From: a virus
IMG/VR virus record: IMGVR_UViG_3300042520_000262
Coordinates: 1-25,524 of that record
Reading direction: 5' to 3' (one strand)
DNA length: 25,524 nt
Within the stretch, counting starts at the first letter, position 1, and the number at the start of each line of letters is the position of its first letter. The notes under the pieces are model-generated. The model did not search any database and had not been told where the DNA came from. It saw only the letters and a program-made list of their open reading frames with translations. A program made the position numbers and the translations under genes. This document shows positions 21,352-25,492 of the stretch, piece after piece.

Positions 21352-22560
21352 TTATCCTAAAATGGTATTTCCTTTTGATAATTTATGTAACTGAAAATAT
21401 ACGGCATAACGAATTGCATCAATGCTATGATTAAACGCATCTATTGGAGTGTCGGACTTTCTATCGCTCCAGGTGTAGTTATTTAATTCCTTTACTATGT
21501 TGGTACTATCAGGGTCGATAATCAATTCATAATCTTGCATCAAAGCTAATCCCGCACTAACGCTTCCTGGTCCTTTAATCGTTTCTTTTATGTTATTCCC
21601 ACGTACCCTAAGTTCGTGAATTAAACGAGGCTCGGCACTATCTGCAATAATTAATTTATTATCGCAATACCTTTGATTAAGTTCGAATATCTCAGTAGTT
21701 GTTAGTTTAGCTTTATAAACTAATTCTTTGATATAGATACGCTTGTTTGATTTATCTATTGAGGTTTGAACTAATGTAGTCGGGTCAATACTGAATCCAA
21801 AATCCTGACCGTAAATGGATGGATTAACTTCGATAAATTTGCCTAGCTTCCAATTAGTAAAGACTACGCCCTCCGCTTTGTCTAGCCAACCGCCTAAGAT
21901 AGTATGTTTATACTTTATTGGGTTTGTTTCTTTAAGATTTTTAACCTCGTCCAAAAATGATTCGTCTAGGTTATCCTCGTTGTCTAGATAGGTGGTATGA
22001 ATATAAGTTACATTATTTTTAATCCCAGTAAATCCCTCTGGAACTCCCGCATTTTCAAAAAACCTTTTATAAATCCAATGCTCTTTAGTGGCTGGGTTCA
22101 TAATAAGAATTACCCTGTTTTGTATTCCCTTTTGTCTTATTGATAGGTTTATTTTATCGAATACTTTCTCATCTGTTTGTTCCTCCGCTTCGTCTAAAAT
22201 CCAAGTGGTTACACCCTGTAATGATTTAAGGTTTGCCGTCTGGTCGCCCGAGCTTGTCTTTATCCCTTTAAATAATATTTTAGAACCTGACTGCCTATTT
22301 ACTATTTCGGTTTTATTAATATCGAACTCTCCGTCCATATTCAGCAACTCTATTTTATTCTGAAACTCTGGTATAATAGACAGGTGTGCCGAGGTCATTG
22401 TTTGCCTTGTAAATAGTATCGTATGCCCTTTTTGAAACGACAAAAGGCTGGTAAATCTACCAACCTCAAAAGATTTTCCACTTCCACGTCCTCCAGTTAT
22501 AATAAAGTATCTCGTTTTACTCCCTAATATATCCCATATTTTTTTATGTTTCGGAATCAT
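21352..22560 (-). CDS. terL: terminase large subunit (Terminase_3 / PBSX type)
   Basis: A 402-residue packaging motor with an ATPase and a nuclease. Walker A is GGRGSGKS (residues 23-30), Walker B is WILDEAEE (120-127), and the ATPase coupling segment follows near IMNPATKEHW. The RNase-H-like nuclease acidic residues are visible at GQDFGFSIDP (D253), IIADSAEP (D307) and NHSIDAIRYA (D381). It overlaps the small subunit gene by 17 bases. Length is typical. Packaging type (cos or pac) cannot be told from the sequence alone. Confidence 0.95.
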   Translation of the reverse strand: MIPKHKKIWDILGSKTRYFIITGGRGSGKSFEVGRFTSLLSFQKGHTILFTRQTMTSAHLSIIPEFQNKIELLNMDGEFDINKTEIVNRQSGSKILFKGIKTSSGDQTANLKSLQGVTTWILDEAEEQTDEKVFDKINLSIRQKGIQNRVILIMNPATKEHWIYKRFFENAGVPEGFTGIKNNVTYIHTTYLDNEDNLDESFLDEVKNLKETNPIKYKHTILGGWLDKAEGVVFTNWKLGKFIEVNPSIYGQDFGFSIDPTTLVQTSIDKSNKRIYIKELVYKAKLTTTEIFELNQRYCDNKLIIADSAEPRLIHELRVRGNNIKETIKGPGSVSAGLALMQDYELIIDPDSTNIVKELNNYTWSDRKSDTPIDAFNHSIDAIRYAVYFQLHKLSKGNTILG

Positions 22561-22906
22561 AAAGCTTAGTTATATCGAAGTTGGTGTTTTTGTTTTCGCT
22601 TTCCACATATTGCATTGATAACTTTTTAAGTTCCTCAGGTGTTGCAATCAATTTCATCAATGCCATTTGTAACGCTGGAGCGTTTGAGTTGTACCACTTC
22701 GAGCGCATAGACACTTTTAAAGTGGTTCGATTAGTTTCCAGTAGTCCTTTTAGTTCGTTCATTTCGTTCGAGTCAGTCGAAAAATATTCGTAGAATGTAG
22801 TTTTACCACAAGGCAAAAAGGCTACTATATCCTCCACAAAAAACAATTTATGTTTGACTATCATTTCCTTTGCCTGTTCGAATATTTTAACTCTATCGTA
22901 AGCCAT
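22544..22906 (-). CDS. terS: terminase small subunit-like DNA-binding protein
   Basis: A 120-residue protein immediately upstream of terL. The N-terminal half has a helix-turn-helix pattern (FFVEDIVAFLPCGKTTFYEYF, residues 22-42), and the middle helix (LKGLLETNRTTLKVSMRSKWY) fits an oligomerisation region. The C-terminal NTNFDITKLYDSET overlaps terL. Small terminase subunits select the packaging start on phage DNA. The call rests on the HTH, size and position. Confidence 0.8.
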   Translation of the reverse strand: MAYDRVKIFEQAKEMIVKHKLFFVEDIVAFLPCGKTTFYEYFSTDSNEMNELKGLLETNRTTLKVSMRSKWYNSNAPALQMALMKLIATPEELKKLSMQYVESENKNTNFDITKLYDSET

Positions 22907-22908
22907 AA

Positions 22909-23589
22909 TTAATTTTTTTCGTTTAGCATTAAAGCGTCTGGCCTAAATATATCCTTAACCTCTAGGCTCGGCTCAAACGTGCTAAATCTGTTATCTTGTG
23001 CCCTTCCTTTTACCGTTCCGTTAATAATATCGTTTATGGTTTTATTAATTAGCCTAACCCCAATATCTTGAAGCTCGTGCTCCCATAGTAACTTAGCCGC
23101 CTTTTTTACGTCCATATTATACATTTTTGGGTCTATCCAAACTAGCTCTTGCTCTATAATATCTCCTCTATCAATTCCAGAGTTTAACCAAAATGTTGTG
23201 CCACCAGTTAAAAAGTCCCTCATTTTTATGGCCCACTCTATTGACGACCTCCCCCTATGTCTCGGTAGTAGGCTTGGGTGGTATCCTATCCATCCTATCG
23301 TCGGCTTATACCTTGTGGTCTTTCCTATGTAGTCGAATGAGTGGGCGGTTATACCAACGTCCACACCATTTGGAATAGTATCTCCGTTTAATGAACCCGC
23401 TGGTAATATTGGTATTTCATTTTCATAGGCCATTTTACCAACGTGTCTATCCCCTATTGGAGTGCATACTCCAACCACATTAACCCTAGGGTTTTTAATC
23501 ATTTCGTGTAGTATAAGCGAGCCAAAGTATTTCTGACCGCTTATAAAAACGTTTAGTTTTTTTTCGTTATCTAAAAATTCGTGCATCAT
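22909..23589 (-). CDS. formyltransferase-fold enzyme of the modification-like cassette
   Basis: A 226-residue protein with the N-terminal Rossmann-like domain of the methionyl-tRNA / GAR / sugar N-formyltransferase superfamily, which transfers a formyl group from 10-formyl-THF. Visible are IGYHPSLLPRHRGRSSIEWAI (residues 101-121), TGGTTFWLNSGIDRGDII (128-145) and a helical C terminus. Of the canonical Asn-x-His...Asp triad, H104 and D140 are present but the Asn position is G102. I recall phage members with the same GYHPSLLP form. It overlaps the GNAT gene as ATGA and is 2 bases from the terS start. The substrate is unknown. Confidence 0.85.
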   Translation of the reverse strand: MMHEFLDNEKKLNVFISGQKYFGSLILHEMIKNPRVNVVGVCTPIGDRHVGKMAYENEIPILPAGSLNGDTIPNGVDVGITAHSFDYIGKTTRYKPTIGWIGYHPSLLPRHRGRSSIEWAIKMRDFLTGGTTFWLNSGIDRGDIIEQELVWIDPKMYNMDVKKAAKLLWEHELQDIGVRLINKTINDIINGTVKGRAQDNRFSTFEPSLEVKDIFRPDALMLNEKN

Positions 23590-24179
23590 AACTTTTTACC
23601 TAAATATTTAAAGCCCTGTACCGCTCTAAAGTGCCCGCCATAGCCACCCCCATTTTTTCTATCCCCAATACCACCTTTACCCTTATTTGACTTCGCGATT
23701 GATGCCCCAGACTTTGCTTTACTTGCCCCATACATTGATTGACTTTTTAAAACCCAATTTTTTGAGTACTTTAAAAATCCAACTAATTGTGGGTGGCTCG
23801 TATGGAATAAGGTCGGGAACTTTTTACCGCACCTACCGTTACCATCTTTATGGTATTCACAAACCCACTCTAGGAACTTTGTTCCGACACCCGCACCTTG
23901 CCACTCTGGCATTACCACAAGCCTAGTTGCCCTGTAGGCCTTAGCCGTAAACATTGGGCATACCGCTAGGTGTGCCACAAGCTCTCCGTTAACTGTTCCA
24001 ACAAAGTATTCCGCAGCGGGTGGCATCGGCAAGTCTAAATAGTAATGTGGCTTAAAGTACTTCCAATAACTGGAGTTGACCTTCCTAATTTCCAACTCGA
24101 AGCTTGGTCTTGGCTCGAGTTGCTCTCTTTTTTTAACTCTCCAGTTCCAGTATCGAAAACCCAGTCTGGCTGTAGCCAC
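23586..24179 (-). CDS. GNAT acyltransferase domain, likely C-terminal half of an ATPase-GNAT protein
   Basis: The open frame has a GTG at 24179 but no sensible ATG, and its first 17 codons read through DNA encoding the ATPase in another frame. The real GNAT part starts near 24128. Visible are SSYWKYFKPHYYL, FVGTVNGELVAHLAV and the acetyl-CoA binding motif RLVVMPEWQGAGVGTKF (ORF residues 86-102). A Lys/Gly-rich stretch (153-185) and FRAVQGFKYLG end follow. The PSFELEIRKVN...HYYL stretch resembles the linker between ATPase and acetyltransferase domains in COG2401-type fusions. Mu Mom also has a GNAT fold. It ends in an ATGA overlap with the formyltransferase gene. Confidence 0.8.
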   Translation of the reverse strand: MATARLGFRYWNWRVKKREQLEPRPSFELEIRKVNSSYWKYFKPHYYLDLPMPPAAEYFVGTVNGELVAHLAVCPMFTAKAYRATRLVVMPEWQGAGVGTKFLEWVCEYHKDGNGRCGKKFPTLFHTSHPQLVGFLKYSKNWVLKSQSMYGASKAKSGASIAKSNKGKGGIGDRKNGGGYGGHFRAVQGFKYLGKKL

Positions 24180-24730
24180 TCAATAATATCGTAATGGCAC
24201 GCCAATAAAACAATTTTTTTTCCCTTGTTTCTTCTCCAACCCTTCGCGAAGGCCATAGCACCTATTTTCGCAATTTGCCTATCTATTACGGACGTAAACT
24301 CGTCCACAATAACCTCATCGGGTGCCTCGGTAATAATACGTGCCAAACCAGCTCTAAACTGTTGTCCGTTACTTAAAGCGTGAAATGGTCTTAGCCAACT
24401 TGGAACGTCTCCAAGCCCAACATTTGCCAGCGCTCCAGTAACGGTATCAAAGTCTCCATTCGGCGCTATTGCATCAATTATTGGCTTATCTTTATCCCAC
24501 CCATCATATAGGTCGATTAGTTTACCCCCACCAAATAATTGCTTTCCTATTGAGGTTTTGCCACTTCCGCTCGGTCCAACGACAAGACCAATTTGCCAGT
24601 CCATATCGTCTATGTCTATATTTGCGTCAAGGTTAAATTCGTTACCCCTCTCGGCATTAAATAGGGACTTAACCCTCGCAGACCTATAACTATTATAGTC
24701 CTCCGTTCTATTTCTAACTTGTACTATCAT
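24035..24730 (-). CDS. ABC-type ATPase, likely N-terminal half of an ATPase-GNAT protein
   Basis: A 231-codon soluble ABC ATPase without membrane segments. Walker A is GPSGSGKT (residues 52-59), the signature-like ALSNGQ is at 118-123, Walker B VIVDEFTS at 140-147, and the H-loop His at 179, all intact. The end of the core (HYDIIEWLQPDWVFDTGTGEL, 179-199) is followed by KK and, in this frame, an Asn/Ser/Gln-rich tail that looks like an out-of-frame tail. Staying in the other frame at the A7 run 24134-24128 gives a continuous 381-residue ATPase-GNAT protein. It starts at a TAATG overlap with the ParB-like gene. Soluble ABC ATPases of this type are not transporters. Confidence 0.85.
   Translation of the reverse strand: MIVQVRNRTEDYNSYRSARVKSLFNAERGNEFNLDANIDIDDMDWQIGLVVGPSGSGKTSIGKQLFGGGKLIDLYDGWDKDKPIIDAIAPNGDFDTVTGALANVGLGDVPSWLRPFHALSNGQQFRAGLARIITEAPDEVIVDEFTSVIDRQIAKIGAMAFAKGWRRNKGKKIVLLACHYDIIEWLQPDWVFDTGTGELKKESNSSQDQASSWKLGRSTPVIGSTLSHITI
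24128..24134 (-). promoter_or_regulatory. A7 run joining the ATPase and GNAT frames by -1 shift
   Basis: The minus strand reads GAG TTA AAA AAA GAG in the ATPase frame. After a -1 shift on A AAA AAA the ribosome reads AGA GAG CAA in the GNAT frame. The same fusion would result from transcription slippage adding one A, or if the true template has eight A and one was lost in sequencing. Confidence 0.6.
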
Positions 24731-25248
24731 TACGTTACCACCACTTTACAATTAAACCCCATCTTTGTTAGGTCGTTAAAAACGCTTTCCTGAGTTCCAG
24801 CACTTTCACAAACTACGATAACACCATATTGATTTTTATCACTAATTCCCTCATCGTCAAAGTTTCCCTCGTCCTCTAAGTCCTCGCCAAACGTTGGTAT
24901 ATCCATACCCCACTCTTCCAATTGTTCCGAGTTCCACTCGTTTGCAAGCATATCCCAGTCCCACTCGCCACCTGAGGTATTGTCTTTAATTAAAAACTCC
25001 CTTTGTTGCGCTTCGGTTAAGTCGGCCACAATAACTGGAACTTCTTTCAACCCTGCTTCTTTACAAGCTTTAAACCTCATATTACCTCCTAAAATAATCA
25101 TATCTTGGTTAACAACAATGGGTCTTATGTCGAGCATTTCTGGAAAGTCTTTAATAGACTGCACCAACTTTTTAAACTTATCGTCTTTAATCAAACGAGG
25201 ATTATTTGGATTAAGCTTAATTTCTGATATTTTAAAGTTCTGTTTCAT
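24730..25248 (-). CDS. ParB/Srx-fold protein of the modification-like cassette
   Basis: I choose the ATG at 25248 (MKQNFKISEIKLNPNNPR), 172 residues, because the domain begins there and it lies one base past the lipoprotein stop; the longer frame from 25302 overlaps the lipoprotein. The ParB-like domain shows LNPNNPR, LVQSIKDFP, IRPIVVNQDMIILGGNMRFKA and VIVADLTEAQ. A phage-type extension, IKDNTSGGEWDWDMLANEW, follows, then an acidic linker and a small beta domain (YGVIVVCESAG to CKVVVT). The fold binds or hydrolyses nucleotides and DNA in ParB, Srx and free-serine kinases. In phages it is often linked to DNA methylases. Overlap with the ATPase gene is TAATG. Confidence 0.82.
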   Translation of the reverse strand: MKQNFKISEIKLNPNNPRLIKDDKFKKLVQSIKDFPEMLDIRPIVVNQDMIILGGNMRFKACKEAGLKEVPVIVADLTEAQQREFLIKDNTSGGEWDWDMLANEWNSEQLEEWGMDIPTFGEDLEDEGNFDDEGISDKNQYGVIVVCESAGTQESVFNDLTKMGFNCKVVVT

Positions 25249-25249
25249 A

Positions 25250-25492
25250 TTACTTACAACTTCCTTTTTTTGGCTTGTTAGATTCTCCAACCCAACTGCC
25301 ATCCCTCTGTATTCCTGTGCAGTCGTTTATTGTTATGTAACTACCGAATGTACTTCTATCTGCTAGAGTAAAGCTATCAACGTAAACAACTCTATTGCAA
25401 TTACAATTCTGCTCAGGTGCTTCTGCATTGTCATCTTTACTACACCCTACTAATAAAATTCCCGCGATTAATCCTAATATCTCTGCTTTCAT
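25250..25492 (-). CDS. small surface-type lipoprotein
   Basis: An 80-residue protein with a signal peptide (MKAEILGLIAGILLVG), a lipobox LVGC (C17) and SKDDNAE just after the lipidated cysteine. The S-K-D-D pattern resembles the Bacteroidetes lipoprotein export signal that sends lipoproteins to the outer face. The mature part has four more cysteines (30, 32, 58, 79), suggesting two disulphides. It is the first gene of the accessory cassette. A phage surface lipoprotein may block receptors against superinfection, as Llp of T5 does, but that role is inference here. The 32 bases upstream to the window edge show no complete promoter. Confidence 0.78.
   Translation of the reverse strand: MKAEILGLIAGILLVGCSKDDNAEAPEQNCNCNRVVYVDSFTLADRSTFGSYITINDCTGIQRDGSWVGESNKPKKGSCK

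Follow-up and report, generated by a model that had tools for sequence, protein, structure and literature searches.

A candidate phage DNA-base acylation cassette joining a ParB-linked adaptor, an ABC-GNAT effector and a formyltransferase-like protein beside terminase

What could unite a ParB-like protein, an ABC ATPase, a GNAT acyltransferase and a formyltransferase-like protein (FMT) that are encoded side by side next to phage terminase genes? The question arises from IMG/VR virus record IMGVR_UViG_3300042520_000262, of which we analyzed positions 1 to 25,524 (the window; at 25,524 nt it is possibly a fragment, and absences hold within it only), and in which a preliminary description made from the letters alone had pointed to a possible DNA-modifying role for these genes. 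Comparison of the locus with its relatives leads us to consider it likely that it encodes a phage DNA-base acylation cassette, with the ParB protein as adaptor, ABC-GNAT as effector and FMT as donor enzyme, and somewhat likelier still that its function is DNA modification of some kind. The features concerned are the following.

24730..25302 (-): ParB-domain protein and putative adaptor, 190 aa, other start ATG 25248; ParB_N head plus short C-terminal tail; PF02195, E 7e-11
24733..24843 (-): C-terminal end of the ParB protein, a tail specific to the effector; phrog_28816 at residues 154-189
24035..24730 (-): soluble ABC-type ATPase; PF00005, E 1e-6; phrog_11143, E 2e-87
24128..24134 (-): slippery heptamer A AAA AAA where ABC meets GNAT, its phase fitting a -1 shift
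24093..24122 (-): RNA stem-loop, 5 nt 3' of the slippery run; window z = -2.4
23586..24179 (-): GNAT acyltransferase, open reading frame (ORF) with GTG start, conserved part from 24128; PF00583, E 9e-7; phrog_11143, E 2e-50
22909..23589 (-): FMT; Formyl_trans_N, PF00551, E 2e-14
22544..22906 (-): putative small terminase subunit (TerS), by position; recurs between the slot (see below) and TerL in relatives
21352..22560 (-): large terminase subunit (TerL); PF04466, E 2e-35

The preliminary description had proposed looking for conserved co-occurrence of the four families in other phages. The ABC protein alone as query returned 252 viral stretches, of which 80 were kept, and an ABC alignment returned 432 bacterial-genome stretches, of which 80 were also kept; the loci were fetched by ABC similarity only, which makes the presence of ABC true by construction, but not that of the other cassette genes. 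The gene order of the cassette recurs across these 80 viral and 80 bacterial-genome loci, the latter spanning Bacteroidota, Clostridia, Akkermansia, Planctomycetota, Proteobacteria and others, and the association of the genes is far beyond chance. GNAT follows ABC in every examined locus with long enough sequence, FMT stands directly after GNAT in 138 loci (19 have room for it and lack it), and the short tail found at the end of the window's ParB protein lies just upstream of ABC in 157 of the 165 loci having at least 400 nt upstream, with a ParB domain in 54. ABC and GNAT occupy a single in-frame ORF in 96 loci, and in one further arrangement (L159) ABC, GNAT and FMT form one ORF of 538 aa; the family phrog_11143 (357 positions, function unknown) covers both ABC and GNAT, and therefore many relatives carry the two as one protein. 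Gordonia phage BiggityBass repeats the order of the window (ParB / ABC-GNAT / FMT / terminase). The four families are therefore conserved together in unrelated phages and prophages, clearly the opposite of never occurring together. None of the curated NCBIfam models fits ABC, GNAT or FMT at its cut-off, and PADLOC and NCBIfam together gave weak, generic or below-cut-off matches only, one of them a type II methyltransferase model that matched the ParB head. Existing records misname some of these proteins (L004:1823-2473; L005:3962-4639; L222:4100-4930): FMT as a tRNA-methyltransferase, the name that it also bears in BiggityBass, ABC as an iron siderophore transporter and the GNAT part as a DNA polymerase.

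A second set of loci indicates what the cassette may do by showing what takes its place. With the window's ParB domain alone as query, 80 viral loci were kept (83-92% identical), and the slot, lying between ParB and TerS/TerL, is taken up by an N6/N4 methylase in 42 of them (40 within the ParB ORF), ABC-GNAT in 5, and one or more separate genes in 33. By Pfam, the 39 separate slot genes include 14 TAGT, 11 Mom, 5 Tet_JBP, 2 D12 methylase and 2 FkbM genes, along with one C5 methylase, one sulfotransferase and one radical SAM gene, so that behind a window-like ParB head the slot gene is nearly always a DNA modifier. The exchange is visible between close relatives: Streptococcus pyogenes phages Javan523 and Javan447 are 96.7% identical as far as the ParB-domain end and 95.3% identical through terminase, with tail-ABC-GNAT in the slot of the former and a DPPY methylase in that of the latter, and Javan141 and Javan128 are 97.2% identical up to the same break at the ParB-domain end. 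Lactobacillus gasseri phage JNU_P11 has the order ParB, TAGT, terminase, and Bacteroides phage BS-TP3 has ParB, methyltransferase, TerS and TerL, matching the window order.

Several occupants of the slot deserve mention in their own right. The ParB-methylase of Javan447 (L205:4001-5167) is split into two ORFs and may be a decayed gene. Mom (PF25680) lies between terminase and a ParB near-identical to that of the window at L245:2709-3413 and in ten other loci of L229-L308, with tail types of its own. In four loci (L230:4043-5522, L234, L292, L295) ParB is followed, within one slot, by an FkbM methyltransferase or TAGT plus a TET/JBP dioxygenase, apparently plug-ins for multi-step base modification. 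Methanoculleus virus L4768 (L091:1242-2486) encodes, upstream of terminase, a "DNA modification methylase" with a ParB-like N-terminus followed by a PAPS-reductase domain (PF01507), possibly a sulfur-type DNA modifier in the same slot.

The tails that follow the ParB domain sort by effector, with median local alignment scores of 341 within the Mom group, 341 within TET and 179 within ABC, against 49 between groups; TAGT tails are of several types (median 47). An ABC-type tail was sought in ParB proteins beside a methylase or TAGT and was not found there, and in Mu-like phages this tail is a free ORF of ~42 aa directly upstream of ABC, without a ParB domain. On the basis of this sorting and of the free ORF we read the tail as a putative docking adaptor, and we infer the binding itself. 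The preliminary description had assigned DNA or nucleotide recognition to the ParB-like protein; its head fits a shared targeting unit, but the part tied to the effector is the C-terminal tail. In Porphyromonas phage008a the mini-protein labeled "acr candidate" (L002:3876-4004) is this ABC-GNAT-specific tail; we reject the label, as the ORF is a tail mini-ORF and probably not an anti-CRISPR. ParBc proteins are known to adjoin a demonstrated phage cytosine hypermodification pathway (CmoX/CmoY), and fusions between them and DNA methylases are common (PMC12783734). The window shares with those loci a ParB domain tied to DNA-modifying enzymes, whereas its effector chemistry is different, its ParB protein is separate and its tail is specific to ABC-GNAT.

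The position of the cassette in Mu-like phages points the same way. Using phrog_310 (MuA-like transposase) as the Mu marker (PF09299 was too weak and was dropped), we found MuA in 19 of 50 tested records; in 17 of the 19, MuA occupies the left end, and 6-1662 nt separate the end of the cassette from the right end of the record, the ends of IMG/VR prophages being predicted ends. In Mu itself, 115 nt lie between the end of mom and the right end of the phage. Porphyromonas phage008a and Pseudomonas Komp_PAO1_1 both have transposition genes of the Mu type, with the cassette after the tail genes. Like Com-Mom of Mu (PF25680, phrog_1384), the cassette has a GNAT-fold effector and a right-end position in Mu-like relatives (the window cassette lies beside terminase instead), and in the kin of the window Mom fills the same ParB-terminase slot; unlike Mom, the cassette GNAT has an intact acyl-CoA motif, an ATPase partner and often FMT. 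We reject membership of the GNAT in the Mom family, for which neither HMM nor hhalign gave a link, the Mom profile being shallow and a distant kinship still possible; the fold is common to all GNATs and therefore not specific for Mom. Because Mom, TET, TAGT or a DNA methylase can stand in the slot of the cassette, and because its position in Mu-like phages is mom-like, we consider DNA modification, as the preliminary description had proposed, a highly likely function.

The nucleotide-site and acyl-CoA motifs of the effector are intact. In ABC the Walker A, signature, Walker B DE and H-loop motifs are invariant or nearly so among 70-72 homologues, and the AlphaFold2 model (pLDDT 82.7) has a transporter-type nucleotide-binding domain fold with 27 disordered C-terminal residues. 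In GNAT the acyl-CoA motif QGxGxG is conserved among homologues, and Foldseek assigns the AlphaFold2 model (pLDDT 81) to the GNAT fold, the closest solved structures being for the most part acetyltransferases of proteins or small molecules. For the coupling of a GNAT to an ABC ATPase, an uncharacterized acyl modification of a DNA base has been predicted, according to PMC7824862, which cites Iyer 2013. The window has the same ATPase and GNAT families as that system (e.g., Tenacibaculum phage pT24, itself a relative of the window ATPase; phrog_11143), and it shows both the coupled or fused families and the intact nucleotide-site and acyl-CoA motifs that membership entails. The formyltransferase, ParB tail, frameshift and Mu-end form of the present cassette go unmentioned in the accessible part of PMC7824862, though Iyer 2013 may describe some of them.

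Whether FMT takes part in this chemistry turns on its active site. Amine formyltransferases have a catalytic Asn at the N-x-H position. The best solved relatives of FMT are the hydrolase domains of 10-formyl-tetrahydrofolate dehydrogenase (FDH), and its site is FDH-type (His94, Ser96 and Asp130, numbered on the matched region), with His, Ser and Asp in 56/56 homologues and the Asn in 0/56, Gly, Ile or Val standing there instead. The Asn-x-His plus Asp signature of Fmt and PurN is therefore incomplete, with His and Asp but no Asn, and the NCBIfam fmt and PurN models both scored FMT below cut-off; the His-Ser-Asp site without Asn is that of FDH/HypX-type thiol formyl transfer. FDH hands formyl to a phosphopantetheine thiol, and HypX has been proposed to hand it to CoA (PMC6802093). 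FMT resembles the FDH hydrolase domain and the HypX N-domain in its best solved match (FDH), its His-Ser-Asp and a non-Asn residue before Tyr-His, but differs in being small and stand-alone, without an ACP, ALDH or ECH domain. On that precedent, formyl-CoA as GNAT donor would be the simplest link between the two proteins. FMT probably makes formyl-CoA for GNAT; we hold CoA-linked formyl transfer with moderate confidence, and name formyl as the group transferred only tentatively.

The rival that survives best has the core modifying DNA with acetyl or another host acyl-CoA, while the FMT-like protein has a task of its own: it might add formyl to the group already installed, remove formyl from it, or hydrolyze 10-formyl-tetrahydrofolate. 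An FDH-type site is also capable of hydrolysis, the function of the FDH hydrolase domain, and FMT is missing from 19 loci that have room for it and keep ABC-GNAT; it is also missing in Streptococcus phages and from 5/5 ABC-GNAT loci among those fetched with the window's ParB domain, so that formyl would not be needed by the core. Against such a separate job stand the placement of FMT just after GNAT in 138 loci, its single occurrence in one ORF with ABC-GNAT, and a GNAT C-terminal motif, H-[FY]-R-A, which is lacking in 15/19 loci without FMT versus 3/138 loci with it, a correlation at clade level and not of independent events. In three loci without FMT (L192, L200, L201), the downstream genes, read by eye, offered no obvious alternative donor enzyme. 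We regard this alternative as unlikely, if far from negligible.

A second rival would have GNAT acylate a host protein (RNA polymerase, a ribosomal protein or a defense protein), with ABC and ParB as targeting factors. Some phages are known to encode GNATs with host proteins as targets (PMC7824862), and the nearest solved GNATs, as noted, act mostly on proteins or small molecules. Such a target would leave unexplained both why methylases, Mom, TET and TAGT can replace the cassette after one shared ParB head and why its position in Mu-like phages is mom-like, and we consider it improbable.

The junction of ABC and GNAT bears on how many proteins the cassette yields. Homology to GNAT starts at 24128, at an A7 run and in the -1 frame relative to ABC; the ABC ORF, read in the other frame, continues for ~93 nt more to its end at 24035, its last ~32 aa being the zero-frame end after the slip site. 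The sequence TTA AAA AAA GAG lies exactly at the domain boundary, and a -1 slip at this point would give ...GTGELKK-REQLEPRPSFELEI..., in which the conserved domains follow one another gap-free. An A6-A11 run occurs at the boundary in 53 of 56 distinct split loci, compared with A7+ in 9 of 818 same-size control windows within the ABC body. In eight relatives all 8/8 pairs of the downstream stem-loop are kept (64/64 pair cells standard), two of them altered on both sides, and sliding the stem partner by one column lowers pairing to 39-50%; the control shuffles leave relatedness among the sequences in place, and the covariation is therefore support and not proof. Programmed -1 frameshift genes such as dnaX and IS transposases have an A AAA AAA/G heptamer, a 5-nt spacer and a stem-loop. 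The window has all three, with the heptamer in phase, an overlap and a conserved downstream structure, but its site joins an ABC ATPase to a GNAT, and many relatives differ in having A9-A11 runs without a stem. In most Flavobacterium-type loci with such runs the stem is missing, pointing to polymerase slippage in these loci; we reject the stem-loop as a universal signal, as among folded loci it is present in the A7 loci of the window's group and absent from most others. Two ordinary overlapping genes with their own starts, the A-run being merely a Lys-Lys codon pair, would account for the GTG start at 24179 and for two Streptococcus split loci without an A-run, but not for the -1-phase run at the boundary in nearly all split loci, the fully paired stem with compensatory changes or the in-frame fusion in 96 loci; that explanation seems quite unlikely, and production of ABC-GNAT by frameshifting or slippage is, of all the points graded here, the one we hold most firmly. 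With GNAT homology in the -1 frame at the A7 run, the four enzyme-like genes of the preliminary description keep their four families but probably encode three polypeptides.

The weakest rival, an ABC transporter or drug-resistance moron with unrelated neighbors (some records read "ABC iron siderophore transporter"), is highly improbable, as is the record label "ABC transporter" which we reject: the ATPase fold is closest to transporter nucleotide-binding domains, but no membrane subunit is among the cassette genes, and the ATPase is fused to GNAT and co-conserved phage-wide with the ParB tail.

Taken as a DNA-base acylation cassette, the locus would work as follows. The ParB head would be a common unit by which a modifying enzyme reaches phage DNA, and the short tail at the C-terminus of the protein would dock one particular effector, here ABC-GNAT, made as a single chain via -1 ribosomal frameshifting (or polymerase slippage) at A7. 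The ATPase half may couple DNA binding to helix opening or remodeling that gives GNAT access (we hold DNA opening with weak confidence), and the GNAT half would use an acyl-CoA to acylate the amino group of a base. FMT would move formyl from 10-formyl-tetrahydrofolate to the CoA thiol, giving formyl-CoA as donor, and the expected mark would therefore be an N-formyl or formyl-derived base, placed after replication and before packaging and shielding virion DNA from host restriction; our confidence in anti-restriction protection is moderate. The fullest version, in which a ParB head with effector-matched tails forms an exchangeable DNA-modification slot and the window's plug-in yields a new (N-)formyl-type mark through a formyl-CoA donor and a frameshifted ABC-GNAT, is offered more tentatively. 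Several observations count against this account: the absences of FMT and the clade-level nature of the motif correlation given above; the FMT triad, which is common to amine formyltransferases, such that the missing Asn alone points away from them; the stem-loop, which is not conserved in loci with A9-A11 runs; the predicted status of IMG/VR prophage ends; and the comparison of GNAT with Mu Mom, in which no sequence or profile link was found (hhalign probability <2%, no significant HMM match, and Pfam Mom not among the matches).

In the window at large, the layout read earlier from the letters is borne out in part. ParB_N, ABC ATPase, GNAT and Formyl_trans_N are each matched by profiles; the cassette adjoins terminase, with the putative TerS and then TerL directly after FMT (the TerS-position protein had no confident family match in Pfam/PHROG profile searches), and lies away from replication genes, the exonuclease and SSB genes being at the opposite end (742-1685). 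The couplings of 1-4 bases hold for ParB/ABC (1 nt) and GNAT/FMT (4 nt), but not for ABC/GNAT, where the homology overlap is ~93 nt. A MazG-like nucleotide pyrophosphohydrolase lies at 33-398, at the other end from the cassette, and a small ORF with a lipoprotein-like N-terminus (LLVGCSKD) and no family match overlaps the ParB start (25250-25492). The 359-aa product of 12690-13769 matches phrog_1530, named DNA methyltransferase, and also a head maturation protease; it is probably a capsid protease.

The preliminary description knew of no account of the four-part set. ABC-GNAT DNA acylation was predicted before, as cited above from PMC7824862, and that part of the claim falls; in a literature search of partial coverage we found no account of the FMT branch, nor of the frameshift, the tail-effector code or the Mu-end form. 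An untested prediction of ABC-GNAT acylation becomes a testable pathway with isolated phages (Gordonia Sourvirus such as BiggityBass, Pseudomonas Komp_PAO1_1), in which FMT is the likely donor enzyme and the frameshift fusion plus tail adaptor is the relevant protein unit to purify. The sorting of tails by effector suggests an adaptor role for ParB, which would help to explain the presence of ParB domains beside phage DNA modifiers, a matter that PMC12783734 calls unknown.

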